Assembly: GCA_026874595.1 (NCBI GenBank)
Contig: CM049312.1
Location: 65,504,929-65,568,928, forward strand
Source: Sipunculus nudus
Taxonomy: Eukaryota; Annelida; Sipuncula; Golfingiida; Sipunculidae
Direction of reading: 5' to 3'
DNA: 64,000 nt
A program made the translations under genes and the position numbers. This document shows positions 4,558 through 59,755 of this stretch, one piece after another (position 1 is the stretch's first letter; each line of letters starts with the position of its first letter). The notes beneath the pieces were generated by a model. It saw only the letters and a list, made by a program, of their open reading frames with translations. It was not told the origin of the DNA and made no database searches.

Positions 4558-4668
4558 GACCGATTACTCCGCTGTATTCCGTCATTGGAACGCTTTTTTC
4601 TGAGTAACTTTGACACGCACAAAGTTCCAGACCCGGCAAAGGAAGAGTTCAATCTACAGCAGTATCAG
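4558..4668 (+). pseudogene. BRICHOS-like exon, paralogue of exon 4 of the 30 kb gene
   Basis: A 111-bp open exon lies between an acceptor (tttatattgcag) and a donor (CAG/gtctga). It encodes 37 residues, exactly the length of exon 4 (29801-29691) of the minus-strand gene. Shared motifs include LLRC, the block FLSNFDTHKVPDP and EEFNLQQ. Compared with the 30 kb gene, the second cysteine (RCF) is phenylalanine here (RFF), so only one cysteine remains. No upstream exons (signal peptide, first BRICHOS strand) were found between base 1 and this exon. The copy is therefore 5-prime truncated, or its first exons lie outside the window or beyond recognition. I call it a gene fragment because its terminal exon is frameshifted, but this exon itself has no lesion. 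Confidence 0.7.
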
Positions 4669-5767: not shown

Positions 5768-5945
5768 ACACGTCACCAATCGCCCAAGACTGAGGAAATA
5801 CTAGGGGACGCTGTACATCAAGCCATGGTGATCACAGAGCAAATCCAAGATACGACTACCCTGACGGAGCTCACGCGACAGATGCTAGCCGATTACGCCC
5901 TCTACCGGGAAGAGCCGTTACCAAGGGACGCTGAGATACTGCAAG
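5768..5945 (+). pseudogene. BRICHOS-like exon, paralogue of exon 5 of the 30 kb gene
   Basis: A 178-bp open exon between acceptor (acaacag) and donor (CTGCAAG/gtcagg). It has the same length and phase as exon 5 (29242-29065) of the minus-strand gene. It encodes 59 residues plus one base. Conserved pieces are the start x-R-H, MVITEQIQDTT against MVVTEKIHDTT, and the end LYREEPLP. The MV(I/V)T(E/D)xI segment resembles the ITM2 BRICHOS segment MVITDRIEN. The reading frame continues correctly from the exon at 4558-4668, so two consecutive exons remain intact. Downstream the expected last exon appears only at 15203, after the MULE remnant. Confidence 0.7.
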
Positions 5946-7173: not shown

Positions 7174-7769
7174 TTAAATATTTTCTTCGTATATCCATTC
7201 ACATTTTTTATTACTTAGCCAACAACCTAGCCTATTATACGCGAATTCTACCGCATTAGCGATAGCATACACACCACAATCTCTGTGATTATTTTGAAGT
7301 ACAGAGTTTGCTACATAACCGGGTATTTGGGAATTGTTGGAATTATAAATTTGACTTAATTGAATCTCTGCCGAGGAAGTTAAACTCTTGGAAACCCCGC
7401 GTAGACTATCAATTATGAAAAGATTCCCCCTTCCCGCCGTACAGAAATAAGCCAATGGGAATGGCCATTGTGATGAACTTGGATACAAGGGCCTTTTTTA
7501 GAACTGACATTTGTAAAACCTTGTTCTGGAACGATCCATTGGTTTGTTACTTCATTATAATATGGTGTTAAAGTTGTGTCCTGAAAACCTAGGATACCCG
7601 GAAACTGTTTCTTTAAAATTATTTGGGCCGCTCGAATGTGTTTATTTGAAAGCCATGAATCATTTTCTATTTCTCGTTTATTTTGGACAGTGAGGCCTAG
7701 CTCCTGTAACCAGTATCGCACTTTATTAGAGTCTTTTTCTGGGGAATCGCTGTTGAGCACTGGTAACAT
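7174..7769 (-). pseudogene. Ulp1/C48-type cysteine protease domain of a Mutator-like element
   Basis: Two overlapping minus-strand frames (7769-7413 and 7488-7174) are separated by one frameshift near 7450. The first has a WLSNKHIRAAQ-type start, a QFPGILGFQDT segment and the histidine context GHSHWLISV. The second has IIDSLRG (aspartate) and HRDCGVYAIANA (cysteine nucleophile) with a preceding VLQNNH. The order His, Asp, then DCG-Cys is that of ubiquitin-like-protein proteases of family C48, which some Mutator-like elements carry at the C-terminal end. It lies downstream of the MULE transposase remnant on the same strand. The frameshift makes it inactive as it stands, unless it is a sequencing error. 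Confidence 0.7.
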
Positions 7770-8810
7770 CGATTATGACTTTGTTTTGTTTTGAAAATTT
7801 ATATCTGGTAAAAAGGAATCTAACTTTGTTTTTTTTTTTTGTTACCTCCTTTTATTCCGAAATCGATAATGCATTGCGTTTAAGCTAAAGCCTTTTTTTC
7901 TTTTTTATGTGGAGTTATTTTATTCGTCTTATTTGGATTTTGATATTCGTTTGTTGCCTTTTGACTATGATCCGTAGGCAATCTGACACAAGTACTTTTC
8001 TGATTATTACTTTTTTCATTGGAATTCGGAATGTTAATTGATGCATTACTACTGATGGGGGTTGAAAGCGATTCGGTACTTTGGTTCATCTCTTTACTTT
8101 CACCAAAATCCAGCCTGGTCCTTACACGTTTCCGTGCCGAGTTTTTCAAAATAGATTTTGGGGTTTTCGCTTTTGAAGAAATATTAGTAATGGAATTTTG
8201 GGTTCAATCTAGCACAGGGGTTTTTGGGGTTTGAGAAGTTATATTTAACGACGTGTCGGTATCAGGAGCCGGTTCAAATTCATATGTAAAATCTGTTTTC
8301 CTTGGTTGGTTCCTACCAGTTTTTCTCGCGGCCCTTTTTGTACCTCGCCTGGACATTAGTGACACATTAAGTTTCCGCTTTTCATCAGTTACCTCTAATC
8401 CGATTGATTTTCGAGCGGCCAAAATATGATAGCAAACATTGGTTGCTTCCCATTGACATTTCTCCGTTGGAAACAGTGTTACTGCGTATTTATTTCCATT
8501 AGTCCCTTCGTCAAGAAAATTAGCAAATTTTGGAACTAGTTCTATTTTTCCCTTATTATTTATGTCCTGTGCCCTTTAAATATGAGTCAAATTTTTTAAC
8601 AAAGTCAGTTTTTATTACATTTTCTTTATTCTCCGAATCGTTGTCTAAAAGATCTGATTTAAAAGTTTTTGGTTCTGACATGAATTGGTTTATATTGTTT
8701 TTAACTTTATCTACAATGTCCTCTGGAGCGCAAGAATCCGCGGGGAAAGGTTGGTCGTCAGGTGTTACTAGCAAATGAAGAAATTCCAATTTCAAGTGAT
8801 ATGATCCCAG
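7770..8810 (-). pseudogene. Basic linker region of the Mutator-like element
   Basis: Minus-strand frames at 8795-8556, 8422-8204 and 8149-7880 are hydrophilic and rich in K, R, S, T and N. Examples are the basic run SRRGTKRAARKTGRNQPRK and PTDHSQKATNEYQNPNK. They sit between the transposase core and the protease. The frame changes between them indicate indels or stops. No domain is recognised. The arrangement fits a disordered, possibly DNA-binding or nuclear-targeting linker in a transposase-protease fusion, which is inference. Confidence 0.45.
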
Positions 8811-10129
8811 ATTGCAATAGCCTCTTAGAAATTCTCTGAAATAATAATTTTGAAGATAGTAAAACGAAAGTGTCAGTGTGTCTACTGGAGCCTCCTTCCA
8901 CTTTCTAAGACGTTTAATGACGGCATTAAAATACTCCGCTCCATTGTTTGTTATACCCGGAGCACTATCGTAAACGTTAACTCTAGCACGGGCCTGTTAG
9001 CATATTTCAGCAAATCCGATTTCAGGTGTTTATTAAAGTATTCTACAACTAAATCATTCCATCTGTTCCTGACAATTTGTTTCAAATTCATCCGGAGAGG
9101 CACTGTGTATTTATTTTAAGAAGGATACTTTATATTCAGCCCACTTACCGTAATCATCATGTTTAAGCACATATCTTTTCAAGTCATTTTTTATATGGTT
9201 CCAACAGTGGACGATGGAGAAACACTTGGAAGAACAGCTTCCAAAGCATTAGAAATTCCCCGCTCTCTATCCACTACAACTGTAATTTTACTGTTTTTAA
9301 GGTTTGGCACCCGCCTTATTAGTGATGTTATGAAGTCTTCATGTTCATATTGTAGTTTTTTAGCATGCACCAGTAATGCTAACGGAATGAAAGGTGCCTC
9401 CTTGAAAAAAAAAGTGCCTAAAACAAATCGGAGACACATAGAAATTCCCCAGATTAAATGTTGTGTCATAAACACAGTACATAGGACAAGATTTCCGATT
9501 TAGCCATGTGAGGACCAAATTCTGGATATGTCTTGACTTCATAAACAAAATCCTTTAGTTAATGAGCAATTAAATTGGTATTATAAAAATCATCATGTGA
9601 AATTTTCTGTGTATTATTCCCATACTGAACTGTGTTTCGGACTTGTTTCTTATGTTTTGGTCTGCGCACGGCTTCATGCATGACATGTTTACTTTTACTC
9701 ACCGATTTTTTGGTAAACTGAATAGGGGGGCTCTTGAAAATTCTCCTTAATTTCTCACAAAACTGAGGGACATGTTCTCACATGAGGAAATCTTCTTTGT
9801 TTACAATGGGCATGAGCTTCGGGCTCAAATTCCGTGTGGCCACCAAGGTAATGGACTAAAACTATGTGTGGATTATCTATGAGCCACCAAGCTTGCATGA
9901 GAAAAAGTCCCTACTTTACTCAGTTTATGGTACAGTTTCTTTATAAACGCAGGTTCTCCTTTCTTGGTGGGATATTTCTGTGTCCCGTTATTTTGCCGCC
10001 AGGCGTCTGAAAGACAAATAATGGGAAATTTATTGATTTCATTCTTTAAAATTTGGCATTTTTCTATGCGACATGGTTCCACCATATCAAACGACGATAC
10101 TAATTTTACTAGTGCACATACAACAGATA
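8811..10129 (-). pseudogene. MULE transposase domain remnant (Mutator-like element)
   Basis: Read on the minus strand from an acceptor (ccttcacag) at 10130, frames run S-V-V-C-A ... MVEPCRIEKCQ, then a HCKQRRFPHVRTCP metal-binding-like motif near 9780. Next comes FIPLALLVHAKKLQYEH and ITVVVDRERGISNALEAVLP near 9250-9390, the second acidic block of MULE transposases. HCWNHIKNDLKRY follows near 9200, reached by a one-base shift; it is the CxxH motif of the family. Then comes ITNNGAEYFNAVIK near 8930-8980, the NNxAExxN signature. Several frameshifts and stops are present (near 9215, 9500-9870 and 8830-9100), so the copy is dead. It lies between the exon-5-like and last-exon-like pieces of the plus-strand BRICHOS paralogue. 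Confidence 0.7.
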
Positions 10130-10566: not shown

Positions 10567-11485
10567 TTAGTTTAGCAGCATCGCCGTTCGTGTTGATCAA
10601 AAACACCTGCCCCCCATGCCGCTGGATGGCTGGGTCAGTACACACATGACAGTTGTCCTTGTTCCTTAGCAGAGTGGCAGCCTCTTGGTACGTTAGGGTA
10701 TGGTGTTGTGCTGTTTTGAGGACTGTTTAGGTAATGATCCTGCTTCTAGTTGTGGTGAACACTGTTCGGGGCCCGACGGGGAACCTCCAACAACTTGCAC
10801 AGGGTCCGACAGGATACAACAGCCACGACCTTTGCGCGATCTCCTCTTGTAGGGGTAGGCATCCTCCCATAAGATACTCCTGTCTGGATGTCATCACGTT
10901 CCTCTGTTGTTGGTTCGATCAATGCTTGCAATACACGGAAACGTTAACCCATTTCTGGAGTCGGGCGCTTCTCCGTTTGCCGACCTCTGAACTTCTTTGC
11001 TGGCAGAGTACCGTAATTCCCTGTCTTCCGACCACAGGACTTGGTTGCTGGCGGAGTACTGTACTCCCATGTCTGCCGACCACTGGACTTGGTTGCTGGC
11101 GGAGTACCGTACTTCCATGTCTGCCGACAACTGGACTTGGTTGCTGGCGGAGTACCGTACTTCCATGTCTGCCGACCACTGGAATTGGTTGTGGGCGGAG
11201 TCGTGCGCTTCTCCGTCTGCCGACCGCTGGACTTAGTTGCGGGCGGAGTCATGCGCTTCTCCGTCTGCCGACAACTGGACTTGGTTAAGGCGTCCTCGTA
11301 GGCGTACAAAGAGTGGTAGGCCGATCGGTAACATCAGAAGAGTGCGGTGGAAATGGAAACGGCGAATTTCTCTGGGGAAGAGCGGGCCATTCGTCTTTTG
11401 ACAGTGTTGTGGCATTTGCTGAGTCGGTCAAGACAGGCACTGATGTAGAGGGTACCGGAGGGTCTGGATGCCCCACAGACTTGCA
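10567..11485 (-). pseudogene. 5-prime exon of the Mutator-like element with coding 48-bp minisatellite
   Basis: Minus-strand interval with an acceptor (tctttcag) before 11485 and a donor (CTAA/gtaagt) after 10567. A 437-bp intron joins it to the transposase exon starting at 10129. The start encodes GHPDPPVPSTSVPV and KDEWPALP. A frameshift near 11300 leads into about seven 16-residue units of the type KSSGRQTEKRTTPPAT (about 10945-11290). A segment TLTYQEAATLLRNK with NCHVCTDPAIQRHGGQ lies near 10570-10700. Each unit is 48 bp. Assignment to the transposon rests on strand, spacing and matching splice sites rather than on a recognised domain. Confidence 0.5.
10945..11290. repeat. Minisatellite, 48-bp unit, about seven copies
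   Basis: Direct repeats of the type ttgctggcggagtaccgtac followed by ttccatgtctgccgacc, with period 48. The units alternate between an atgtctgccgacca type and a cgcttctccgtctgccgac type. The period is a multiple of three and all three minus frames stay open through the array, so several long overlapping frames arise here. The minus frame reading KSSGRQT...TPPAT is the one consistent with the neighbouring exon content. Confidence 0.85.
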
Positions 11486-12077: not shown

Positions 12078-13680
12078 TCAGCTTGTCATCTTCCTGAAAT
12101 ACTGTTAAAATTTATTTTTGCATACTTTTATTACACCACCCCTGTGTTAGTACACTTCGTGCTTTTTCTTTAAAAAATATTATATATGTCACCCCCTTGA
12201 GTAAATGAAATAAAAATCACTTGACAAGGTCGATATTAACAATGGTTTATTTTTGTCTTGCATTACGATCAGTCTTTGAGTAGATCTAAGAAAAATCCAA
12301 AGTGAGTGCTGCGACAAAAATATCCGGCTACATTAACAAAGACAATTAAACTCTTTTGATATACATATTATGCCCTGTTGCCCACTTATTGTTCTTTATA
12401 AGCAATCCTCACGGTGTAATTACAATCCGTTAACCTACAACCTGCGTTTCCATGTGTCCTCTCTTCAGTGTTTAACAAACAGGCATGAACATAAAAGCTT
12501 ATGATATATATAATTATATGCTTTGACTTAATTACAGCTTTTCTGTTCACGGAAAGTTTTTTTTTTTTACTTTTCAAAATTATGAAGTATAAGAAATATA
12601 AATTACAAATAATATTTTAAATTCCGTTTGGTTTTAGTAGCATCATTTACCCGTCTACGCACGTTCCGACCCCTTGGCACGTGTCATGAGTGACTTCACC
12701 AGGTCAACAACGGCACTGGTACAGAGCGGAGCCAGAGACATATTTCTGACGACATGAATTGATGTCTGATGGAATGGAGCAAATCAACATATAATTGCAG
12801 CCAGTGGCCCTAGTGCGAGCGAACCGGATTACCATGCGTTGGTCATCTTTCTGGATAGATGGTCTAACTTCGGGCTAAAGTCGACTGTACCTGCATGGAA
12901 ACATAATTAGCATTGGCGAAGATGAAAAATAACACACACAAAGCATTACTCCATCCATGATTACACCAGGACGGCCACTCTTGTTCGACGACCAGGTGTC
13001 GCATGTTTAAAATTGGAGCTGGATGCACAATGTGATTAAAATTCTTTGCACTTTGCGCTCCCTAGTGTTCAAACCCAGAAAAGCTAGCTATACAAAGCAG
13101 CGGTTACACGAAAGATAACTGGGACCACTTCGTGAGGAGCGTAACCCTGAAGAGTATTCAGAAATGATTAAATGATTAAAATGCCGTATCATAAAGCAAG
13201 AAGGTATTGGGGTTATTATTCATTATACCTTACATGAATCTCATATTGTACTTTAAGTAATTTAGCACACCCCCTCCCCCCCCCCCGACTTTTGTATCAA
13301 TACGGGAAATATCAGGGGGAATATTGGAGTTCTGTCACTGTTTAAGATTTATCACACACCTTTTATCGGCTAAAATCAATTCATTCTCTCTACCAGTCAA
13401 TACCGTTGAATATTTGTCTTTTTAAACATGTTTTACTAGGATGGTCAAGTTGGTTATGCAAGTGATGAAATGTATGATTAAACACCAATTATACAGATTG
13501 GATATGACACATAATGTTTTCTTTCGGATACTGTAATGTATAGCATATGTTTGTATATTAATTTGTATTACAGTTACTAACAAGTGGCCTATAGGCCATG
13601 GCGCTCAGCTGAATAAAAGAAACCTTGAACAAAGGGCAAAATGACTCCCACAGCACTAAAAAAACATACTTTTACAATAG
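11486..13680. other. Non-genic stretch with (CT)n tract
   Basis: Contains a T-run near 11630, (CT)n at 12034-12074 and a poly-C run near 13268-13286. No exon is recognised. The frame at 11964-12173 is mostly a by-product of the CT repeat. Confidence 0.5.
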
Positions 13681-15202: not shown

Positions 15203-15368
15203 GGCCGAACTTTATCCACCTCATGCGACTATCTGGTTATTTGTCCGTATCCTAACGACCGCAAGTCCTACTGTGTCGGACATCACACGGGAGCGAATTT
15301 CTTCAAGTGCTTGTATTGCCCCATGAAGTCACCACGGAGACTTGCCGAAGTGGTTGTAAAATCATGTA
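15203..15368 (+). pseudogene. Frameshifted last exon of the plus-strand BRICHOS paralogue
   Basis: After an acceptor-like ctccctcacag, the sequence matches the final exon of the 30 kb gene almost codon for codon: S-C-D-Y-L-V-I-C-P, then Y-C-V-G-H-H, then GANFFKCLYC, then a cttgccgaagtggttgtaaaatcatgtaa end. A run of four C (15319-15322) replaces the five C of the intact gene, so the frame shifts by one. It then reads PMKSPRRLAEVVVKSCN instead of the cysteine-rich end. Sequence before 15203 resembles a local repeat rather than the start of the paralogous exon, which carries the REKR site. The exon is therefore also 5-prime eroded, or its start is altered. It probably belonged with the exons at 4558 and 5768. 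Confidence 0.65.
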
Positions 15369-18300
15369 ATTAGATTCGGGGAATATCTGCATTCGTACCA
15401 TCGAAGGCACTGAACCTAGAGATTAATGTTTACATGTAAGATGAATAGATTTAGTATGTTTCCTTTAATATTGCAGTCGCTAGTGGGGGGTTATGCTTAC
15501 ATAAATATTGAAGATTAAATATAATTGAACGTTAACAAGCTGTCTTCTTAAAAGAACGTGAAAGTGAAGTCAGATTTGAAGATTCAAAGCTGTAAAAAAA
15601 CAATAGGACTGATATAAAAATAGTTTATTTGAAAAAAAAGTGTGATTGAATTATTACCTTTGTTTTACCATAAATGTATTTGTTGAATATATAATCAGTT
15701 ATTAGACAAGATGAACAGGGTTCATGGCAGACACAAGTCCGGTGTCACGTTTAAAAATGTATTTGTCTACATAGACTTTGCTTCCCTTAATTATCAATGA
15801 TTGCAAGATGAATATACATACTATAGATTGCATAGGTGTTTATGTATTTGTATATGTTATCTTTTTGTTATCTTGATTTTAAGGCATTAAGTATTGTTTC
15901 TGTCTGTTACAAACTATACGATATAATATTATCCGTCATTGTATTATTCAAATCTATTTTCACATGCTTTTTAATGAAATTTGTGGTATCATGATTCATT
16001 ACTGTACTAGGCATGTATATATGTACTGTTTTCTTTCATATATGATATTGCTGTAGAATATAAACATTTGACAGACTGAATGCTGGAAAAACAATAAAGT
16101 AAATCAGCATTAAATTGGTTTTATTTTATTTTGATAATATTGTGCGAGGACTTGCATGATGTTTTCTTATAATAATTTTCTGATGAGAAATATGATAATT
16201 CATATTCACGAAGGCAAGAAACTGCAACAATAGGGATAAAATAAACAAAATCCGAAGTCTGCTCTGCTAGCTCTGGTCACACGGCCGTGTAGGGGAAATA
16301 TTTCATTCATACGTTCATTGCTTGATGATCCAGTTTTTCATGATCATGGTCTGGTCTGAAATGAAAATCTCCATGTTTCAATGAGAAAACCTCGCGGATT
16401 TTTTAACCGAAATTACACACCAGACAACCCGAAAGTGAAACATTTTGTATACTTTTATAAGAATGAAAGTGAATTTCAATATCAGCAAAGGCCAATTTTA
16501 TGTGATTTTGACCTGTTATATGGCTTAGGGGGTCATCAGTGTTTCAGAATCAATGGCGCTTGACACAATGTCATAAACACATAGGTTTGGTCAATATTTA
16601 TGGGAAAACATGATTCTGTTTTCTTACTTTGAGTGGTTGTTACCTTTAATATATCCTTTAGTCCATATGAAATACAATCCCGTAGATAATCCCGTCTATT
16701 TAATAACAAATACAAAAAAAATATAGTGTCACTGGCCAGACTGTAAAATCAAGATAGACTGCCGTAAAGGGTAGTTTCCCGAAATATACACTTATGGCAG
16801 CTCGCATATGTTAATTGCTCATGTGTAAAATTAGTGAAAAAAATCAGTGTCACTAACTGTAAGTTTAATTCTCACTCGTGTTAATTCAGTAGCCTATTGT
16901 CTGTGGGACACAAAGCCACAGTACCACGTGGACTTGGCTGATTTAACTTACCATTTATTTGATTATTCAATACTGACAACACGGATATGACAATGTGAGT
17001 CTGTTGCACTGAAGATGAAAAAACTTAAATCCTGAATACAATATCGCTTAATAAAATGATGTAGGATGCTGGTTCCCTCACCTATTGGAGCATAACTATC
17101 ATGCAACCACATCTCTCCTATTCGCATGAGGGGAGAAATATTTTGCTCTTTTATATAGCATTTGAGGGATACCTTGCTTAGCTATACGCAGGACAATTCA
17201 ATACTGAAGTTCATATATACAGAAAAATAATGCCTTAGTACAGTGTTAGATGTCGGTGTGCATGTTAAATCCAATGAGGGTAAGATCGCTACACAACGTC
17301 ATCTTCACTATAAAGAGACATCGGTTACTAGTACAGTCATTTTGTAACATGACCTCACACAAATTGCAACAAAAGATATCCCGTTTGTTTTGTAAACCAG
17401 AAGGTATCATTTTGAACATATGAAAAGTCCTAAGATATTCTCCTGGGTGAAAGTAGTAAAATTTAGGAATATCTAAAATGGCTGCCAGAAGGACTAGAAT
17501 CCATCAAGTTTAATTAATCAAAAGGTATAATTATATGTAATACAACATTTACATGTTTTTTTGCTCGCAGAATCCAATTCTGGTAATTATTTGCTAATTT
17601 AAGGACTCCCAAGGCCCGTAAGTGGAAGTTGATGTGGGAACGGTCTGAAGCTTTCGGTGCGGTGGGGTGGGGGTGGTAGCACGACTCAGTAGGCATTTAT
17701 ATTGAGTGGGTAACCTTAACTTGGTTATGTGCAGCGATTACCTACCCTTTTGCACTGATATCGTAGTGATTAGATATTCAACAAACAGGGATTGACCAAT
17801 ATGCTGTGATAAAACGGAATTTTTCTCACACATGGTAGGTGTTGTTAGAAAGAATACTAAAACAGCCAGGATTAGTCTGGTTAATGTCAAGTGACGCGGC
17901 GCCTGCATCTGAAACACCCATACAGGTCATCAGATGCAACTGTCAAACTAACTGCAGCACCTTAAGAACCACGTGCAGAAAGAATCACATAGCGTGCACC
18001 CTTGATTGTTGAAACTACAGGGGCTCTGGCTGCGTACAGGGTTGACAGCGGTCAAGGAAAGTCAGGGAGAATATTATGTTTTCAAGGACAGAGAAAAGTC
18101 AGGGAATTTCCTGAAAAGTCTGGGTAAAGTCAGGGACTTTTTAATGGCTATGGCGACTATAGTTGAGTATCAGGTAGCAAGGCTTTTTATCTCATGAGCC
18201 AGAATTCAATAATTCAATACTACATTTTCATTTTTCTTTCAAATAAAGTTGTGTTGTGTCTGTAGGTATAATCTTATTTCTCTTTGATTTCTGTACACAC

Positions 18301-28545: not shown

Positions 28546-30470
28546 TTACATGATTTCACAACCACCTCGGCAAGTATCTGTGGTGACTTCATGGGGGCAA
28601 CACAAACATGCAAAGAAATTCGCTCCACTGTGATGCACGACATCACACGAGTTGGGATCGGAAGGAATTGGACACATTACCAGATAGTTGCATGAACTGG
28701 ATGACGTCCGAGCGTAGCGGACAACCATACCGGCATTGCCCGGACAAGGTTCCATGTCGATGAGTGGCGCACGTTTCTCTCTGGACAGATGATCCGTCTC
28801 TTCGTTAAGATCAACATTTCCTAAAAGAAGGATGAAGATAGTTTATTGAACACAATAACAACAATTTTTATTTCAGGGTGCTTTGTATTATTATCAAAAG
28901 ACGATTGACTAAATTGTTTTAGGAATTCTTTGAGTGTTTATATGATTTACATCATTATTTAGAACATATTTTCGGAGAACTGGTGTTTTAGAATACTGTT
29001 TTTACCACCGCATCATGACCCTGACACCTCATCCTAGTCCGAAGAGTTATTATTTAAAACTGACCTCCTAATATTTCGGCTCCCTTTGGTAATGGCTCTT
29101 CCCGGTAGAGGGGTGAACTGCCGAGCCTCTCGCGCATAAGTTTCGTCAGTGCGGTCGTATCATGGATTTTCTCAGTGACCACCATATTCTTATGTTCTGC
29201 TCTCCCATTCACTTCCTCCGTTTGGGGTAAATTGTGACGCCTCTGTGTTAAAAAATAACTGAATGTAGTCACGATTTATCTTACCTTCAATGACATAATT
29301 TTCTGTTCTGTCATAAATGAACTATGCATTATCAAATTGTTCATATCTTATGTACATTACTTTTTATAATAGATTCTGAAATTTGGACAATTGCACAAAA
29401 AACTATATTTCGTTACACTCAATGGAGAAGGTGACATTTTAAATATATACTGCAGCTGGCTTTTTGTCCATGATGGTTTTAAAGTTGTTCAATTTGCAAA
29501 ATCTAAAACGGTCGCAAAATAAAATCTTCGTGCATAAGAGCCCCATGCACACAGGTAAACATTTTTTATATTGTAGCCTCATTGGCGTCCTATCTAAATC
29601 ATCTATGCCTATTACTCGCAAGATATCTGTTGGAAATATTAATATTGGGATATGCAGTTCAGAGGTACAGACTGTGTTCAGACAACCAACCTCGAACTGT
29701 TTCAGGTTGAATTCCTCCGTGGATGGATCGGGCACTTTCTGTGTGTCGAAATTACTCAGGAAACAGCGGTGAATGAATGGAGTACAGCGAAGTACGCGCC
29801 CCTGAAATACATTGTTTATGATGTATAATTATGTGTGTGTTTGTGTGTTTTATTTGCTGAGGCGACCATTTTAGGCATTTTATCACCGTTTATTCCGCTT
29901 ACAGAATTTACCGCACACGTATCTCTCCTGTTAAATGTAAGAAGTTAAAAATATTTATGGTTTCCTCACCGTTGTAAACTCATACATGAATTTGTTCTCC
30001 GGCAGATCCCTGTGAGCTGGAACGTGAATGTACACAACACGGTTTTCCTCATCTATCTTTGTGTCCTGAGTGAACAGCGCCCCGTGCTCGGACACAGTCA
30101 TGGTGTGGTGCTGTAAATATAGCATGTTTAGTTATTTGGCCAAACCATTGCAACCTTTCACATATTGTTACCTCATACCTCATTTTCTGAAACGAGGGCA
30201 TTCATATCAGCCTCATAGCTTTTTATATTCCTGTTTAAAAAATGTGTTTGAAATTAAGTATGTAAGAATAAATTGTCGATACCATATAGAACACAGAGCA
30301 CCTTGAGCAACTTTCAGAAATGGTGAAAAAGGCCCACGAACACATGCATTTCGGTAACCTGATATCGTAAGCGGCCATGAAAAAAATATGCCTACCTTTA
30401 AATTAGCACAGTAACACACTGACAAGATTGTCACAATCAAAGCGGCACTGCGAAGGTCCCCCATGGTCAT
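28546..30470 (-). CDS. Secreted BRICHOS-domain precursor with cysteine-rich C-terminal peptide (ITM2-like layout)
   Basis: Five coding exons: 30470-30396, 30110-29970, 29801-29691, 29242-29065 and 28820-28546. They give 780 bp and 259 residues, with all phases consistent and gt/ag sites. Residues 1-21 form a signal peptide (AALIVTILSVCYC core). Residues about 50-160 are BRICHOS-like: MYEF then a cysteine strand R-C-F-L around residue 85, matching the ITM2 pattern LYDF...KCYV, then KNMVVTEKIHD against ITM2 HMVITDRIEN. Residues 182-185 are REKR, a furin-type site, as in ITM2 proteins. Residues 186-259 are a 74-residue tail with nine cysteines, ending CRGGCEIM. In known BRICHOS proteins the domain acts as an intramolecular chaperone for a hydrophobic or amyloid-prone segment in the secretory pathway. 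Some annelid antimicrobial peptides are released from BRICHOS precursors. A similar role here is inference. ATG 30464 (accATGG) is an alternative in-frame start. Confidence 0.75.
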
Positions 30471-30787
30471 TTCTGGATCAAACGTTATTTTAAAAAATCC
30501 TAAAATCATGACTTGAATTTTTAGATGAAAAAAACTTAAGGATTGTTGAGATGCATCGTCTGTGTTTTATAGAAATTTATCGTTTATTTAATCGAATATG
30601 AAAGCGAAATTATAAAAAAAATTAAAAAAATAAATATGTAAGGCTAATCTTGCCTTATGTCTTTATAGAGAAATATTCGAATTGAGTAATACTTTTTCAC
30701 CGGTCCGAGTTGTGCACGAACTAAATTAATTTCTCCAAATAGGTAACAGATAATAACAAACTATAAAAAATGAGTTTGACTACTTAC

Positions 30788-30825
30788 CGGTATTTGCTCG
30801 ATGCTGGTTGACAGGTCCTGAACAA
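30788..30825 (-). other. Non-coding first exon of the BRICHOS gene (predicted)
   Basis: A perfect donor (ACCG/gtaagta, at 30788/30787) lies about 35 bp downstream of the TATA-like box, on the same strand as the gene. The next acceptor is probably tgatccag just before 30472, two bases upstream of the first ATG. This gives a 5-prime UTR exon of roughly 38 bp and an intron of about 315 bp. The transcription start is estimated from TATA spacing only. Confidence 0.5.
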
Positions 30826-30836
30826 CTGGCAAACGG

Positions 30837-30859
30837 CTATAAAGGCCATACCTTTATAG
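30837..30859 (-). promoter_or_regulatory. TATA box inside a perfect inverted repeat
   Basis: The sequence ctataaagg-ccata-cctttatag is a 9-bp perfect inverted repeat with a 5-bp spacer. On the minus strand TATAAAGG (30858-30851) lies about 30 bp before the predicted first exon of the BRICHOS gene. The mirror box faces the other way. Confidence 0.55.
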
Positions 30860-35935: not shown

Positions 35936-36127
35936 CTAACAGACAGACAAACATAAACAGACAGACTAAAATATTTAAAGTGAAGACTGTAAAAACGGAG
36001 TATTTGTGCTTATGGACTTTTATAAATTGTTTACAGAGTACAGAATGAAATGAGAGGAGGTGATAGGAAAGCTCAGGCTTTTGTCTTTGTATTAGTGCAT
36101 TTAAATGTAAATGCTATAGTCTACATT

Positions 36128-36200
36128 TTACCGGATTCTGTAGTCGAGGGGTAGGCCAAAGTGTTACTAGTCAGGAGGTCGGGAGTTAAATTTTATATTC
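36128..36200 (+). mobile_element. SINE head fragment
   Basis: ggattctgtagtcgaggggt, then aggccaaagtg and caggaggtcgggagtt, match the first 65 or so bases of the SINE copies at 49362 and 59398. The body is absent. A second head-only fragment with the same downstream flank is at 47337. Confidence 0.6.
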
Positions 36201-36279
36201 AACATGTATGTCAACACAGCCTCTACTAGGGTCATGAATATAAAAATAAATTCAAAAGAAGTCTTACATTCCCGGTGGT

Positions 36280-36382
36280 TCCTGTGATTTGCTAGATAAT
36301 TGTGAGTTACAAGTGCAGACATTCCCAAAATAATAGTTATATTTTTAGAGGCACTTCGAACAGTAGCTGGCGTGAACTTCAT
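36280..36382 (-). pseudogene. Relic of the BRICHOS last exon and 3-prime UTR, block V/X junction
   Basis: The sequence gctagataattgtgagttac followed by aagtgcagac matches the bases just downstream of the stop of the 30 kb gene (28500-28530). On the minus strand an ATGAAGTTCACGCCAGCTAC stretch matches the exon stretch ATGAAGTCACCACAGATACT, with an inserted T that breaks the frame. Only the last 45 or so coding bases are recognisable. Confidence 0.55.
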
Positions 36383-38097
36383 AATGAACTATTAAATAAA
36401 ACTTAAAAGAACATTACCCATATTTACAATTATAATATTAATTACAAATTAGACTGTAGGAACGATCATGAAAGTACCAGTAGGTCTACAGATACAACAG
36501 TATAATAATCGAAAATCCACCTTGTGATTAAGATTGCAAGAGATAGAAGGGACAGTTTGCTAGTTTCTTTAATATAGAAATAAATAACTTAATCTTTAAC
36601 TTATAGACATGACACCAAAACAACAAATTGCTGGTGATTTAATAATATTTCTGTCATGAACCAAAACAAACCAAGACAAACCGAGCCTTCATAGAAAAAA
36701 ATTCATTACTAATAGAACTGTTAAATACCACAAAATGTAGACGTATGGATAAACCGCCAAATTAAATTAATATTTTTATATGTTAATCCAAAAAGGACTT
36801 GGCACTGATTTTCACCAGAAATGTGAGAATGTTAAAGTACCTTTCCAAATGATCGGGTTGGGGTCTTAGCGAGGTGTTATTCAGAAAAAAGACAGATATG
36901 CAGCGCTTGAATCCTATGCTGAGGTACTCAGTGGAAAAATACAACATTATAAAATGTTCGAACATACCTAACAATTAGGTTATAGCCTATATAAGCACGC
37001 ACTCTCATCGAATCAAAGAAACTAGGAAGTAATTTTGAGGACCAGGTGTTTACCTCAGGAGTCGGGAATTGAACGAAAAAAAATTTAAGTTCGTATTGCT
37101 ATACCTGTCTTTTAATTTTCTTATTGTATACTCGCATGGCCAAATTTGACAAATTTAAGCTTAACTGTGCCAAGAAGATTTAAAGTTTATCTGACAGCGG
37201 TATATCAATCAGAGACACCAGGGCATAAGATTGTGAACACTAATTTGTAAAACTAAAAATGGGAAGGCCAAACCTAATGAATGTTTTAGCATTTTAAAGC
37301 ACTGACCATTTAGGTTCGTTCATAAAGATCGTTTATGAAAGAAGGAGATGTCATTATTGAGGATATCAGACCTCTCATAATAAATTATTGATTGATATAT
37401 GCATTTTTTTAGTTGCAAACCTTTATCATGCCAAAAAAGGATTATTTCTAAGTTAGTATAATGCCGGGGAGAAAAAAAAAACTTATTGTGCATCTAAATT
37501 TGAAATATACGACTAATATTCACACCCTATGTCATCAAATACCACTGAACTGTGTAAAAGATATCAAACTAATCTTATAAAGCAGAACCACCTCACTTGC
37601 GCTAGAGACACTGCAACATATTACACTATGATGTGATCATTTATGTCTACGGACGCACGGAAGCTTCAACACATAGCATTATCCTTTTCTGGGTAGTGAG
37701 GACGATTTTGAAGAAACCATTCATCACAGATTTGAGCAGAACATTTGAGTAACATTTCCAAAATCAAATTAGGGAGGAAATATGATAACTTTCAAATATG
37801 GTAGACTTTACTTGATGAGACTAACGATAAAAAAAGTAAAATATGGAAACGTAGCGTTACACATGGGGAGAGAGAGAGAGAGAGAACAAAAGAGACAGAC
37901 AGACAGAAAAACAGACATACAGACAGACAGATTGAGGTATGTTAAAGTGAAGGATGTTATAGTCACATAAACCTTTCTTGCCTAAGGACTGTTTTTTACT
38001 TTCTTTCATTGTGAAGCATGAATGAGAGGAAGTGATTGCAAGCTCAGGCTTTTATCTTTACAGTAGTGCATTTAAAATGCTAAAGACAATATATAAC

Positions 38098-38362
38098 CGG
38101 ATGCTCTGGTCGATGGGTAGGCTACAGTGTTCCATACCAGGAAGTCTCTAGGTCAAATCACAGCTGAGGCGTTGAGAATACGCCTTTTGGGAGTTTCTTG
38201 AAACGAGTACACCCAGGACCAGCATGCAAGGCACACAGAACCTGGGTTACGCCAGGATAATCGTGTGTATCCCCGACATGTAGTCCGAAACCGGAAAGGA
38301 ATTATGCATAATACTTAGTTAATCAAGAATTTCATTACAAAAAAGAGGCGATTATCTCCCAA
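38098..38362 (+). mobile_element. SINE copy with internal deletion, block X
   Basis: Same head and tail as the copies at 49362 and 59398. It lacks about 95 bp between the head (ctgaggcgttgaga) and the acgccttttgggagttt segment. The B box is degenerate (tctctaggtcaaatc). Confidence 0.75.
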
Positions 38363-46457: not shown

Positions 46458-47489
46458 GGTTTGACATGTGTGTGTGTGTGTGTGGTTGTGCTTGTTTGCT
46501 ATTTAAGATGATTAGAATTAAGATAACATGGTCTCCTTTGTGTGTGCTATCATACTAAGAGGACAATCAGTTTATCATAAAATTAGGCATTCGATCAACC
46601 TCATAATGTTAACTTAATATCATGACTTCGTCAAAATGTGTCCTATCTACACAAACTATAACTCAGTTTATTCGTCCATGCCGTCGCCATTGTGATGTTT
46701 GATCACATATCAACCTGGTTGTATGGGTCTTTCAGTGTGTCGTCTTTTCGTCTGATGTTGTCATCTAAGTCTGTTTGCGTGTTCTTTTATCTGACATAAA
46801 TCATTCTACAGACCAGACTACAATTTCCGCTCTGAAAGTGATACAATTAAAAGAAACTGAATATTTGTTCTGTCTCTGTATGATTTCAACTTAGGGCCAG
46901 GGCTCGACCTATGATAGTCTAGTTTTTATATTATTAAGTATACGAAAAAGTATTATTAAGTTGAATTAATATCCATAGTGTCAAACTGTTTTTCCATAAT
47001 GCCCAATTATGTGGTTTTTAGCCAATAATGTTGTCCATTACGTGACGGATTTTCATTGCAAAGTAAGACTCACTTGCTGAGAGTGATAAACTCAGATTTA
47101 GATAGGATAAGTTCAATACTGTCTGCAAACATTTATCAGATTAAAAAATATTATTGTAGATTTTGTGTTTAAAGGATATTTAAAGTGAAGGCTGTTATAG
47201 TGAGAGCGTCAGTGCTTATGGACTTTTATACATTTTTTACAGAGTACAGAATGAAATGAGAGGAAATGGTAGGAAAGCTCGGGCTTTTGTCTTTGTATTA
47301 GTAAATTTAAATGTAAATGCTACAGTCTATATTTTACAGGATTCTGTAGTCGAGGGGTAGGCCAAAGTGATCCTAGTCAGGAGGTTGGGAGTTAAATTTA
47401 AAATTCAACATGTATGTAAACACAGCCTCCGCCAGGGTCATGAATATAAAAATAAAATTCATAAGAAGTCTTACATTCTCGATGGTTCC

Positions 47490-47590
47490 TGTGATATGCT
47501 AGATAATTGTGAGTTACAAGTGCAGATATTCCCAAAATAATAGTTAGATTTTCAGAGGCACTTCGATCAGTAGCTGGCGTAAACTTATGA
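47490..47590 (-). pseudogene. Relic of the BRICHOS last exon and 3-prime UTR, block Y
   Basis: Second copy of the relic at 36280-36382. It has gctagataattgtgagttac with aagtgcagat, then a cacttcgatcagtagctggc segment matching the minus-strand end of the last exon. There is no open coding frame. Confidence 0.5.
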
Positions 47591-49104
47591 ATTTTAAATA
47601 TAACTTAAAAGAACATGACCCATGTTTACAATTATAATATAAATTACAAATTAGACTGTAGGAATAATAATGAAAGTAGCAGTAGGGCTACAGATATAAC
47701 AGTATAATACTCGAAAATCCACCTGGTGATTAAGATTGCAACAGATAGAAGGGACAATTTGCTAGTTTCTTTAATATAGAAATAAATAACTAAATCTTAA
47801 ACATATAGGCAGGACATCAAAACAAAAATATGCTGGTGATTTAATAATATTTCTGTCATGAACCAAAACATTACACCACCGACAAACCGAGCTTTCATAG
47901 AGAAATTTCATTAGCAATAGGACTGTTAAATACCAAAAAATGTAGATGTATGGATTAGCCGCCAAATTCAGTTATTATTTTTATGTGTTAATAAATGTTG
48001 ACCCAAAAAGGACTTGGCACTGATTTACACCAGAAATGTGAGTATGTTACAGTACCTTTCCAAATTATCGGGTTAGGGTCTTAGCGAGGTGCTATCCAGA
48101 AAAAAAGACAGGTGTGCAGCGCTTGAATCATATGCTGAGGTACTCAGAGGAAAAATACAACATTATCAGATTTTCGAACATACCTAACAATTAGGTTATA
48201 GCCTATATAAGCACGCACTCTCATCGAATCAAAGAAACTAGGAAGTAATTTTGAGGACCAGGTGTTTACCTCAGGGGTCGGAAATTGAACGAAAAAAAAG
48301 TTTAAGTTCGTATAGCCATACCTGTCTTTAATCTTCTTATTGTATACTCGCATGACCAAATTTGACAAATTTAAGCTTCACTGTGCCAAGAAAATTTTTA
48401 AGTTTATCTGACAGCGGTATATTACTCAGAGACACCAGAGAATAAGATTGTGAACACTTATTTGTAAAACAAAAAATCCGCAGGCCAAATCTAATGGACC
48501 ATTGTCAATTTTTATTTTTAGCATGTTAAAGCGCTGACCATTTAGGTTCGTTCACAAAGATAGTTTATGAATAAAGGAAATGTCATTATTGACATTTTAT
48601 CAGACCTCTAATAATAAATTATTGATTGAGATATGCATTTTTTTTTAGTTTCAAACCTTTGGAATGCCAAAATGATTATTTCTAAATTAGTATAATGCCG
48701 GGGAAAAAGACTTGTATTGCATCTAAAATTGGAATATATGAATAATATTCACACCCTATTTCATCAAATCACACTGAACTGTGTAAAAGATATATAACTA
48801 ATCTAATAAAGCAGAACTTCCTCATTGTGCTAGAGACACTGCAACATATTGCACTATGCTGTGAACATTAATGTCTACGGACGCACGCATAGCTTCAACA
48901 CATAGCATTGTCCTTTCTAGGTAGCGAGGACGATTTTGAAGAAACCAGTCATCAAAGATTTGAGCAGAACACTTGAGTAACATTTCCAAAATTAAGGAGG
49001 AAATAAAATTACTTTTAAATGTGGTAGTCTATACTTGACGTGACTAACGATAAAAAAAGTAAAATATGGAAACGTAGCGTTACACATTGGAAGAGAGAGA
49101 GAAG

Positions 49105-49143
<39 letters not shown>

Positions 49144-49361
49144 AGAGAGAGAAAAAAAGAGACAGACAGACAAGAAAACAGACATACAGACAGACAAACA
49201 GTATTTTAAAGTGAAGGATGTTATAGTCACATAAACTTTCATTTTAAGGACTGATTTTGACTTTCTTTCATAGTGCAGCATGAAATGAGAGGAAGTGATT
49301 GCAAGCTCATGCTTTTGTCTTTAGTGCATTTAAATGTGAATGCTATAGTCTATATTTTACC

Positions 49362-49717
49362 GGATTCTGTGGTCGAGGGGTAGGCTACAGTGTTCCATAC
49401 CAGTAAGTCGCGAGTTCGAATCTCAGCTATGGCGTTGAGATTCTTCACGGGCGACCCCCACCCAGGCTAAGTGTTCAGGATGGGTAACGGAAGATTATAC
49501 TCCACAATCGTGTTTCACTCAAAAACGAATACGCCTTTCGCGAGTTCCTCGAAAAGACTACACCCATTACCAGCATGTGAGATACACAGAACCTTGGTTA
49601 TGCCAGGATAATCGTGTGTATCCCCGATAGGTAGTCCGAAACCGGAAAGGAATTATGCATAATACTTAGTTAATCAAGAATTATATTACAAAAAAAAGAG
49701 GCGATTATCTCTCAAAA
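49362..49717 (+). mobile_element. tRNA-derived SINE, full-length copy, block Y
   Basis: The head ctgtggtcgaggggtaggct carries the A-box-like part and cgagttcgaatctcagct the B box. Body and tail match those at 14588. The tail ends near atacttagttaatcaagaat. It occupies the same position as the copies in blocks X and W, so the insertion predates the block duplication. Confidence 0.8.
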
Positions 49718-51319
49718 TATATATTTGTAAATATATGAAAAGTACTATTCATGTAATACATGGCCCTGGTGATTTACTTAGGTTGAGCGGAATTGTAACA
49801 GAGGTTCTGCGTTGCCCGCTTTCAATTCAGGCTTACAACTATTGTTCAACCACGGGGAAAGTTCAAGTTCAGGCTGCAATACCTTTTAATTAAGAGAAGA
49901 CTTGACAGATTTTAATTTTTTAAAATGTAATATATGTTCCCGCTGGCTATAACATCGCCTTTTGTGGTGGCTCAGGGACCTGATACACGGGGTCACACTG
50001 TTCGGCGCTTGTCATTTCAGCTTACGCTCCTGGACATATCGCACAAATCCGTTGCGATAAATTTCCCATTCGGCCCATAGACCGTAAAGTCCATCCCATG
50101 GTTGGGATCTGGCGCACTTGCATATAATAATAGTTCCGTTCACGTGGTCTTGTTATGGTAAACAGACATAGTACACTTTATTTACTAACACGCAGAACAC
50201 TATCAAACTGAAAGGGAGGTCGTGAGAACGCTGCTGGGATGGTTTTACTGGGAAACTGTTGTATTAAGCACAACAAACTGGTAGTATAAACGGTTAGGCA
50301 TAATATTGCTCCTGTTTTTTTTTTGTTTTTTTTTCCTTTAAAAGAACGCAATTCTTTATCCCGATGTAAAATATACATTTTCGAAGAATGCCACCACGTA
50401 CATGGCTGTAAAAAAAATTGTCTGTATTATTTTTAACGAAAGGTGAAACGTTATGAAAGCACCCAGGTAAGTCAATAATTTTATATGATAAGGAATGTAT
50501 GTTACAGAAAAGAAAAGAAACTGACGCTGATTTATAACTGACAAACACAGAGCTCTCTTGCAACCTGCTGATGCGTGGTTATTTAAGAAGTATCATCGGT
50601 TTCAGAAGTATTCTACAAGTGGTACTTAATGTTACAGTTGCAATACAACATGTAAAACCCGCATTAGGACTCAAGTAACCACCAAACAATCAGCCATTTA
50701 ACACGGGCTCTGATCTCATCAAAAGGGCAAGGACGTAGCCACGTGTTTTTAACATGATTGGGATAAAAAAATGAGTGCATTCTACGTTCACTGGTTTCAT
50801 AAACAATACAGCATACTATCTTATGAAAAACAATACTGACTGCTAGAGAATGCATGACAACTGTCAATCGAAGCCATTAGAGTTTATTTGAAACAAGTAA
50901 ATATATAACCAGAGTAGAAGTACATAACCAGGACTTATTTCAAAGCATGGCTGATAAAAGGAAACTTTATCTTCGATTTTTAGAGTAATCTTGATATTTC
51001 CAAATTATATTTCTGATTGTTGTATTTTCATGCCTCAGTGAATATAGACATTCAAATTCCACATCAGTTTATAAGTAAAAACTACCATCCGCTTCACAAA
51101 AGACAATCAGTGTTAAATAATGATATCGAATTGCTGATTTATTTTTCATCATTTCAATCATTCCAAATTTAGTCCTCTACATAAAAAACATATAAGAAAC
51201 ATAACAGGCTATATTCATAAGTTTAAATCAGTTCTGTGTTATGTTGTCACAAGTATACTAAAATTAAATGTTAAATTTAATGTTAAAATTAAATCATCAA
51301 ACAACCGAGATAATATAGA

Positions 51320-52735
51320 TAATGCGTAGCTCACCCAGGACCCATGTGAGGTCACAGAACCTGGGTGACGCCAGGATAATCGTGTGTATCACCGGTCACG
51401 AAGTCCGAAACCGGAAAGAAATTCTGCAAAATAATTAGTTAAACAAGAATGACAAAAGAGGCTGTTATATCTAAAAAAATAAAAAATACTATTTATGAAA
51501 TACATGGCCCTAGTGATTTATTTAGGTTGAGCGGAATTGTAACAGAGGTTCTGCGTTGTCCGCTTTCTTTTACAGGCTTACAACTCTTGTTTAACCACGG
51601 TGCAAGTTCAGGTCCCGGCTGCAATACCTGTCTATTAAAAGAAGCCTTGCAGATTTTAATTTAAAAAAAGTGATCCCGCTGGCTTTAACATCCCCTGTTG
51701 TGGTGGCTCAGGGACCTAATACACGGGTCACTCTGTTCTGCGCTTGTCATTTCAGCTTAGGCCCCTTGACATATCGCACAAATCCGTTGCGATAGATTTT
51801 AAATTCGGCCCACGGACCGTAATGTCCACCCCGAAGAGATATTGGGAATATGAAGACCCATGTATGAACTAGTTTAGACTGCCTCTTGTTTGAGACCTGT
51901 CGCGCCTTGTTATGTTAAGCAGATATAGTTAACTGTATTTACTCGCGCGAAGAACCCTATCAAACTGAAGAGGAGTTCATGAGACCGCTGTTGGCCTGGT
52001 TTTGCTGGAAAACTTTTGTATTAACAAAACAGACTGATAGTGTTAAAGGATAAGGATAATATTGCTCCCGACTTTGTCACTTAAAAAGAACGCAATTCTT
52101 TATCCCGGTGTGATATATATAAGTTTTCGGATAATGCCATTACTTACATTGCTGTAAATTGTTTAAAGATAGGTGGTACGTGATATACAAAATGAAAGAA
52201 CTTGGGTAAGTCAATAATTTTAGATGTTAAAGAATATAATTATGTTACAGAAAAGATAAAAAAAACTGAAGCTGATTTACAACCGACTCACACAGAGCTC
52301 TCTTGCAAATTGCTGATGCGTGGTTATTTCAGAAGTTTTCTCGGTTTCAGAAATACTCGAAACGCGGTAATAAATATTACAGGGGCAATAAAACATGCAA
52401 AACCTGCATCAGGACTCAAGTAACCACCAAATAATCAGCCATTTCACACGGGCATTCGTCTTATCAGAAGGGCGAGAAAAATAGCACTAAGAGACACGTG
52501 TATATAACATGACTGGGATAATAAAAATAGATGCAGTCTAAGTTCATTGGTGTCATAGATAATATAGGACAATATATTAAGTGACACTGATGACCGTTAT
52601 GAAAATGCATAAACCACCGTTAATTGAAGTCCTTAAAGTTTATTTGAAACCAGTTAATATTTAACCAGTATATAAGTACAAAACTAGTACTATTTTTCAA
52701 AGTATGGCTGATAAAACTTTACTTCTAAATAGAAA
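51320..52735. repeat. Array block Z (partial unit)
   Basis: Starts within a SINE tail (51325-51470) and continues into sequence that follows the internal SINE in blocks X, Y and W: tacatggccctagtgattta at about 51501, the acgcaattctttatcccggt cysteine-frame region at about 52090, and the acagagctctcttgcaaatt region at about 52290. Ends near gtatggctgataaaacttta (52702). Confidence 0.75.
52202..52423 (+). other. Open frame over the second half of the cysteine-frame region, block Z
   Basis: A 73-codon frame ending HAKPASGLK. Its core KKTEADLQPTHTELSCKLLM parallels block X KETDADLQLTNSELSCNLLM and block W KETDADLQLTKTGLSCNLLM. In X it continues to a stop after about 60 codons. In Y a TAA interrupts it and in W a TAA interrupts it later. 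The listed start lies in what looks like a 41 to 45-bp intron (gtaagt...ttacag), so the true frame probably begins after that acceptor. No family is recognised. Confidence 0.25.
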
Positions 52736-57200: not shown

Positions 57201-58478
57201 TATCTAATATGGCTGTCAGGCAAATATTCAAAAACTCTTGTATATTATATCAATAACAGATAATGCCTTGATTTAAATGACTCATACTCCTTATTAAATT
57301 ATTTTGGATCCCATACCTCAGTCCAGTATATGACACCAAAAATAATACCAGATAGCTACCATTTTGAATAACAGGTAATATTATTATTATTAGTATTGGT
57401 ATTAGTATTTGAGCAGTTATCATGGGTCGAATATTTTAGATAATCTTGTTCATTCCAAATTCTAGAACCAAATACCTATGATATATATTCTGTAAGAGGA
57501 TGCGAACTTTTACACGTTTTAACAAAAGGGTAAAAATTCATATAAGCAAATGAAACTGAGCTTGATATATAATTTTTATATTAAATATGGCAACATCATA
57601 GAAATTACTTTCATGTAATATTTTATTTTTCTATTGAGTAAAGTTTTTGTATACATTTCCTTGTGTTTAGTTTTTTGACACTCTACCTGGTATATAGAGT
57701 ATAAATGCACGTCGAAATGACTTTTATATTGCACATGAAAATGACCTTGGTCTTCCGTGTCAAATGCTTTTGGTAAGGAAATATTTTCATAAACTGTACG
57801 AAAAATGTTATGAGATTTGTTATGTTCATTTTATGACTTAAAAGGTCAATGATTAATGTCAATTTTATATTCAGTTACTAGTGGATCAACCATTGGGTCT
57901 ATGGTATTAAAATATATTGATAAAGCCAGATTTCAGCATCTTTTTTAGTTGCAGTCTGTGTCAAAGGTCATGGACTAAAACAGTAAATAAAATAATATTA
58001 TACGGTTTAGTGCCACAGATTTACATGCTATAACGAACATTTAAACACAATTCCAAAAGAAAAGTTATTGTTATATTCCTGCTTTTTTGCTACAAATCAA
58101 ACGTATTACATGTGACACTGTTTTTCCTAATTTTATCATAAGGGTCTTCAACTAGAATTGCTTTGAGAGCCAATATCAGTATATCACATGTATTTAGGGT
58201 TAATAAATTATTTGAGTGAAAACATTTTTATATATTAATACTTTTAACAGCCCAGAAAATGGTTCAAATGCAATCCATTCCCATGAATTTTAGTACTTAG
58301 TCCGACCTTAAACTACCCCCCTACCAGGTCTAACTTTTTGCTTAAATCTCAAACTAAAATGCAAAGATAAACTCAGTTTATCTCTAGTCTGTTTTTGAGC
58401 ATACGGTCTAAATTTTAAGTTGGTCTGCAGATTAAAGTGAGACTAACCATTAATCGGCCTTTGTGCATACGGCCCTTA
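54209..58478. mobile_element. PIF/Harbinger-like insertion with TTA target duplication
   Basis: The element spans 54212-58475 (4264 bp). Its left end is ggcccgtatgctaaaaagctga. Its right end in reverse complement is gggccgtatgcacaaaggccga. A second ccgtatgc/cggtatgc motif lies within about 110 bp of each end (near 54310 and 58400). It is flanked by TTA on both sides (54209-54211 and 58476-58478). The uninterrupted site gatttaaagtttatctgaca is present at 37178 and, slightly altered, near 35130 and 48393, so both boundaries are read directly. A 3-bp TWA target duplication with short inverted ends is characteristic of PIF/Harbinger elements. No transposase or Myb-like frame is visible inside, so it is non-autonomous or eroded. 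Confidence 0.7.
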
Positions 58479-59397
58479 AAGTTTATCTAACAGCCGTATA
58501 TCAGTCAGAGACACCAGCGCATAAGATTGTGAACACTAATTTGTAAAACTTAAAATCAGCAAGACAAACCTAATGAACGATTGTCAATTATTATTTTTAG
58601 CATGTTAAAGCGCTGATCATTTAGTTTCGTTCACAAAGATCGTTTATGAATGAAGGTGATGATACTATTGAGCATATCAAACCTCTCATAATAAATTATT
58701 GACTGAGTTGTTGATTTTTTTAGGTTGCAAACCTGAGGCATGCCACAAAATGATTGTCTCTAAATTAGTATAATGCCGGGGAGAAAAAAGACATCTAAAT
58801 TAGGAATATACGACTAATATTCACACCCTATTTCATCAAATACCACTGAACTGTGTAACAGATATCTAACTAATTTCATAAAGCAGAACTTCCTCATTTG
58901 CGCTAGAGACACTGCAACATCATGCACTATGATGTGATTATTAATATCTACGGACGCACGCATAGCTTCAACACATAGCATTATCCTTTTCTAGGTAGCG
59001 AGGACGATTTTTAAGAAACAAGTCACAGATATGAGCAGAACGTTTGAGCAACATTTCCACAATTAAGGAGGAAATATAATAATTTTCAAATATGGTAGAC
59101 TTTATAATTCTAAATATTAAAAAAGAAGAATACTGAAACGTAGCGTAAAACAAGGGGAAGGAAGGAGAGAGAGAGAGAGAGAGAGAGAATAAAGGAGACG
59201 GACAGTAAAGCAGACATACAGATATATACAGAATGAGGTGTTTAAAAGTGAAGGATGTTATAGTCACATAAAGTTTTCATGCTTAAGGACTGTTATTCAC
59301 TTTTTTCATAGTGCCGCATGAAATGAGAGGAAGTGATTGCAAGCTCGGACTTTTGTCTTACATTAATGCATTTAAATGTGAATGCTATACTCTATAT

Positions 59398-59755
59398 TTT
59401 ACCGGATTCTGTGGTCGAAGGGTAGGCTACAGTGTAACATACCAGGAAGTCGCGAGTTCTGATCTCAGCTGAGGCTTTGAGTTTCTTCACGGGCGACCCC
59501 TACCCAGGGTAAGTGCTAAGGATGCGTAATGGGAAGACTATACTTCACAGTCGTGTTTCACTCACAAACGAATATGCCCTTCGGGAGTTCATCGAAAGGA
59601 GTACATCCAGGACCAGCATGTGAAGTACACAGAACTTGGGTTACGCAAGGATAATCGCTAGTATCCCCCAACCCGTAGTCCGAAACCGGAAAGGAATTCT
59701 GCATAATACTTAGTTAAACAAGAATTACAAAAAAGAGGCAGTTATCTCTCCCAAT
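59398..59755 (+). mobile_element. tRNA-derived SINE, full-length copy, block W
   Basis: Head ctgtggtcgaagggtaggct, B-box-like gcgagttctgatctcagct, then body and tail collinear with 49362-49717. The tail ends atacttagttaaacaagaat. Same position in the block as the X and Y copies. Confidence 0.8.

Follow-up and report, generated by a model that had tools for sequence, protein, structure and literature searches.

The question raised by this locus is whether a minus-strand gene with a probable signal peptide, a BRICHOS-like domain and a cysteine-rich tail belongs to a known kind of BRICHOS proprotein or departs from it. Within the window (the whole stretch of 64,000 nucleotides of Sipunculus nudus DNA analyzed here), the gene has five coding exons spanning 30470-28546 and encodes 259 residues followed by a stop codon, and all four coding introns are of the GT..AG type. 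This model had been proposed in a preliminary description of the locus and was reproduced here in each of these respects; it is also supported by a second copy of exons 3 and 4 whose splice sites are intact and which shows purifying selection. Three upstream signals together suggest that a 5' non-coding exon precedes coding exon 1: a TATA-like box (30858), a GTAAGT donor following 30788, and an acceptor just ahead of the start codon, before 30472. The box and this exon account for the right edge of the region as first delimited (30859). The features of the gene are as follows.

30852..30858, minus strand: TATA-box-like element TATAAAG
30788..30830, minus strand: putative 5' non-coding exon; the left edge is the GTAAGT donor and the right edge is placed by guess, ~30 nt past the TATA-like box
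30396..30470, minus strand: coding exon 1, with the start codon and the probable signal peptide (residues 1-25)
29970..30110, minus strand: coding exon 2, with the first BRICHOS-like strands and Glu69 where the conserved Asp is expected
29691..29801, minus strand: coding exon 3, with Cys78 and Cys85 (the conserved first BRICHOS Cys)
29065..29242, minus strand: coding exon 4, with the domain's loop, its last strand and its second helix, and Leu149 at the position of the second conserved Cys
28546..28820, minus strand: coding exon 5, with the linker, REKR, the 74-residue nine-cysteine tail and the stop codon
28771..28782, minus strand: REKR furin-type site, residues 182-185 (position derived from the exon coordinates)
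28549..28770, minus strand: cysteine-rich tail of 74 residues, beginning APLIDMEPC

We consider it likely that the gene encodes a divergent BRICHOS-type secreted pro-chaperone or proprotein, composed of a signal peptide, the domain (residues ~26-160), REKR and the nine-cysteine tail. The signal peptide would direct the precursor to the endoplasmic reticulum, where the BRICHOS-like domain would hold the cysteine-rich tail during disulphide formation; late in the secretory pathway, a furin-type convertase would cleave after REKR and release the 74-residue peptide. This path is inferred from other BRICHOS proteins in which, according to the available text of PMC9714404, the domain acts as an intramolecular chaperone for a C-terminal peptide that is released by a convertase. 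REKR and the tail were both found in the translation as previously stated, and the RX[KR]R pattern by itself is weak evidence, as it is present in 9.7% of 5000 shuffles of the 259-residue protein. The proprotein layout is already known, and what stands out, judged from the sequence, is a domain in which the second conserved cysteine and the conserved Asp are both replaced.

The preliminary description had missed that the gene has relatives nearby. Copies of its parts were found across the window at the following positions.

4558..4668, plus strand: paralogous exon 3, with an intact frame and GCAG/GT splice sites; Cys78 is kept and Phe replaces Cys85
5768..5945, plus strand: paralogous exon 4, with an intact frame, ACAG/GT splice sites and the phase kept; Leu stands at the second conserved Cys position
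12671..12885, minus strand: broken paralogous exon 5, with an in-frame stop and shortened around the convertase site
15206..15369, plus strand: broken paralogous exon 5, with a frameshift and an unrecognisable upstream part
36202..36382, minus strand: relic of the gene's 3' end and 3' flank
47408..47589, minus strand: relic of the gene's 3' end and 3' flank

The paralogous exons are 67% (exon 3, over 36 residues) and 60% (exon 4, over 57 residues) identical to those of the gene. Over their 96 codons, 22 differences fall at first, 20 at second and 48 at third codon positions (p 0.0003), and dN/dS was estimated as 0.20 by NG86 (0.265/1.31), 0.23 by LWL85 (0.239/1.05) and 0.31 by YN00 (0.294/0.958). 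Simulation of neutral evolution (500 runs) gave a mean of 52 and a minimum of 42 amino-acid changes, compared with 38 observed. Bootstrapping gave a median omega of 0.21 and an upper limit of 0.42, the lower side being uninformative; only these two values are meaningful, since saturated replicates were set to 0. For the relic at 15.2 kb (39 codons), dN/dS was 0.31 (NG86) or 0.55 (YN00), and none is claimed for that at 12.8 kb because its synonymous rate is saturated. A search of the window for a complete second gene found exons 3 and 4 alone intact and recognised no copy of exon 1 or 2. Taken together, the paralogous exons, the broken tail copies, the relics and the low dN/dS indicate that the gene is a member of a locally duplicated BRICHOS-like family whose domain exons are under purifying selection.

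The tail cysteines 27, 33, 55 and 67 are retained in both broken exon 5 copies, as expected for a disulphide framework; at the position of Cys57, the 12.8 kb copy has Cys and the 15.2 kb copy Tyr. With nine cysteines the count is odd, so a disulphide-linked dimer is possible. With 3 K+R against 7 D+E the tail is acidic and lacks the cationic character expected of annelid BRICHOS antimicrobial peptides. A membrane-lytic peptide of the arenicin type is therefore improbable; the tail more likely serves as a secreted peptide in defence, mucus or signalling. No Pfam family matched the tail, and it had no likeness to the tails of OAF, LECT1, TNMD, ITM2B, GKN1 and GKN2 (z -0.7 to 0.7; ITM2B 0.5). Searches of viral contigs with the tail and of bacterial and archaeal genomes with exon 4 likewise found no relatives, and these collections are poorly suited to animal genes, so the negative results say little on how widespread the gene is.

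The most probable alternative is an ordinary annelid-style BRICHOS host-defence precursor, in which the tail would act as an antimicrobial peptide after secretion and the domain's divergence would be without functional meaning. The window does contain a local duplication with decayed copies, which is common among defence gene families, whereas the acidic composition of the tail argues against such a role. Among known proteins, HfBRI-75 and HfBRI-91 of the annelid Heteromastus filiformis come close: the available text of PMC10745061 describes BRICHOS precursors that have a signal peptide and a dibasic site, and whose peptides of 75 and 91 residues contain 11 cysteines and are not markedly cationic. 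Compared by description, they share with this gene the layout, a similar peptide length and the non-cationic character, and differ in having 11 rather than nine cysteines and in the conserved BRICHOS cysteines marked in the figure legend, one of which is missing here. These precursors thus lend the host-defence reading some support, but in the same portion of the paper their authors state that nothing can reasonably be assumed about structure or function. We regard this reading, which is compatible with a divergent pro-chaperone, as a tentative possibility that deserves consideration, if on balance an unlikely one. A soluble precursor with a long cysteine-rich released peptide had been put forward as a new, third arrangement of BRICHOS proteins; it is not new, since it is already seen in HfBRI-75/-91 (PMC10745061, available text) and in OAF (Out at first), a secreted protein in which a signal peptide and BRICHOS are followed by a putative convertase site and by a tail of 70 residues held by four disulphides (PMC9714404, available text).

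Whether the domain is BRICHOS was examined by profile and pairwise comparison. The search against PF04089 (Pfam BRICHOS), which the preliminary description had named as a check, returned a weak match to the domain alone (13.3 bits, E 0.1) that is not significant, being below the curated cut-off of 25; of 24736 families, no other was listed for the domain at E values up to 10. This outcome answers to one half of the refuting result named there, the lack of both a significant profile match and a fold match. The full 259-residue protein had no match in Pfam at E 10 and none in a PDB sequence search. Because the Pfam model starts near the conserved Asp, we built a longer profile that includes the strands ahead of it from nine human proteins, whose sequences were checked by Pfam match alone, with domain borders chosen by hand. 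Eight of them match PF04089, and OAF matches its own families PF14941 and PF22873. The gene scored 21.3 bits without and 21.5 bits with OAF in the profile, a score reached by none of 2000 shuffles (best 9.1 bits). When the subfamily of each protein was left out, the eight real proteins scored 13.2-36.1 and OAF 4.0; the longer profile thus fails to recover every relative. Its controls were shuffles and 2157 frames from a six-frame reading of the window. Among these frames the single exons of the gene were not outstanding (best 6.9 to 7.4 bits): with an ITM2 profile, the paralogous exon 4 frame ranked top at 8.6 bits, the exon 4 frame of the gene itself came third at 7.4, and an unrelated frame at 12641-12754 scored 8.2 bits, so single exons prove nothing.

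Pairwise comparison with the nine human BRICHOS-type domains gave the best scores for ITM2A, ITM2B and ITM2C (z 8.9, 6.6 and 8.4), followed by GKN2 (z 5.1), with 0 of 300 shuffles reaching the observed score in each case. The remaining five were unconvincing: LECT1 (z 2.4; 8 of 300 shuffles), OAF (2.1; 14), SFTPC (0.9; 55), GKN1 (0.2; 110) and TNMD (-0.3; 169). The spacing of the core block is fixed: the first conserved Cys follows the Asp position by 16 residues in all eight human domains considered (OAF not among them), and Cys85 follows Glu69 by 16 here, across a splice junction. Judged by the longer profile, the BRICHOS-like motifs noticed earlier exceed chance. Chondromodulin-I and tenomodulin are membrane proteins, and their tails have no sequence match to that of this gene. 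Gastrokines 1-2 are soluble BRICHOS proteins with a signal peptide, and the sequences used here lack a nine-cysteine tail.

The residues of the domain depart from the canonical pattern at two of the three positions described as conserved. The first BRICHOS Cys, on strand 4, is present as Cys85. The second, on helix 2, is Leu149, a point that the preliminary description had missed; Leu is also found in the paralogous exon 4, and Leu149 is independent of the splice model because exon 4 is a single uninterrupted frame. Where strand 2 ends, Glu69 replaces the conserved Asp. With Leu149 at this position, the usual hallmark disulphide between strand 4 and helix 2 cannot form, and, as both of these residues fail, we do not file the gene as a canonical BRICHOS member. 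The available text of PMC9278091 terms both BRICHOS cysteines strictly conserved. In a survey (PMC9627735, available text), Asp is conserved in 97% of single BRICHOS domains, Asn occurs in 2.7%, and Glu and Ser jointly in 0.3%, with one Glu at this position among multiple-domain proteins; sequences were admitted to it only if their PF04089 E-value was under 1e-5, so domains like that of this gene would have been excluded.

The high ITM2 scores bring up a second alternative, namely that the hydrophobic stretch near the N-terminus stays uncleaved as an anchor and the gene encodes a type II membrane protein with an ITM2-like layout after all. The hydrophobic core is short (Kyte-Doolittle 11-residue maximum 2.69, from residue 9, and 1.44 beyond residue 30), and the 19-residue hydropathy maximum (1.65, at residue 6) is close to 1.6, the value usually required of a membrane helix. 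However, only about 13 strongly hydrophobic residues are present, preceded by about eight residues. Cleavage after Cys21, which we take to fit the usual small-residue rule, also counts against an anchor, as does the position of the upstream in-frame ATG within the inferred first intron. The stretch is probably a signal peptide, as had been proposed, and a type II anchor is improbable. Part of the earlier comparison with ITM2 stands, in that ITM2A/B/C (BRI1/2/3) are the best pairwise matches of the domain and likewise carry a furin-type site past it. The tail does not fit: ITM2 proteins are membrane proteins that release a short C-terminal peptide with one disulphide (23 residues in BRI2, available text of PMC9714404), whereas this precursor appears soluble and its tail has 74 residues and nine cysteines. 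The domain also differs from theirs in lacking the second cysteine and the Asp.

A chance resemblance, with the gene encoding an unrelated cysteine-rich secreted protein, would explain why no Pfam match exceeds the cut-off, why two hallmark residues are absent and why five of the nine pairwise comparisons are unconvincing. It sits poorly with the 21 bits on the longer profile against 2000 shuffles, the ITM2A/B/C and GKN2 scores that no shuffle reached, the fixed core spacing, and a convertase site and tail placed as in BRICHOS proproteins; we consider it quite improbable. To read the gene as a divergent OAF-type or chondromodulin-type copy, both being families with a long cysteine-rich tail, is more doubtful still: OAF has BRICHOS, a putative convertase site and a cysteine-rich tail in identical order (PMC9714404, available text), but the gene matches neither PF14941 (OAF_N) nor PF22873 (OAF_C), the pairwise z values are just those given above for OAF and LECT1, and the tail cysteine spacing is, by eye, unlike that of human OAF. 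OAF also keeps the Asp and the BRICHOS disulphide (PMC9714404, available text), both of which this gene lacks. An OAF or chondromodulin tail was rejected as a candidate identity on the OAF profile searches and the tail z values.

If the gene does encode a divergent BRICHOS-type pro-chaperone, its domain may have found another bond. Cys78 sits seven residues ahead of Cys85, and a Cys78-Cys85 bond on the expected hairpin of strands 3 and 4 may substitute for the hallmark disulphide and lock the domain in its place; that the two face each other assumes a hairpin turn half-way between them, which is a guess. In the paralogue, Cys78 is kept and Phe stands at 85, which counts against such a bond being family-wide. 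Our rather doubtful proposal is a BRICHOS subfamily without the helix 2 cysteine and its redox-sensitive disulphide, with Cys78-Cys85 as a replacement in this gene, whose pro-chaperone action on a cysteine-rich peptide would be independent of redox state. According to the available text of PMC5867881, a GFP fusion of C. elegans C09F5.1 with one BRICHOS cysteine replaced accumulated in the endoplasmic reticulum of COS7 cells. Neither a BRICHOS domain without the second cysteine nor a selected family of such domains was found in the available portions of the literature searched. A natural, selected family without the hallmark bond would, if true, reveal which parts of the fold chaperoning needs and test whether the BRICHOS redox switch is dispensable; Pfam searches would then appear to miss part of the BRICHOS repertoire.

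Other features of the window were recorded as well. The 3' flank past the stop codon (28545-28401) can be aligned with those of the copies, at 15370-15506, at 36.3 kb and at 47.5 kb. Segmental duplications in blocks of ~0.5-3 kb with 72-87% identity occupy 34597-62966; one pair joins 48397-51321 with 58476-61355, and another, 35971-38177 with 47176-49440, holds both relics of the gene's 3' end. In 10 of the 20 open frames of at least 110 residues, Pfam searches gave no family above the cut-off, and DUF7017 and DUF485 were weak matches below it. Three adjoining open frames on the minus strand (7416-8996), situated after the intact exons of the paralogue and before the broken copies of the tail, contain a CxH-type segment without a Pfam match, which presumably resembles a transposase zinc finger. 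A tandem repeat lies at 10731-11333, with copies 96 bases apart and a 16-residue unit, and is open in frames of both strands.
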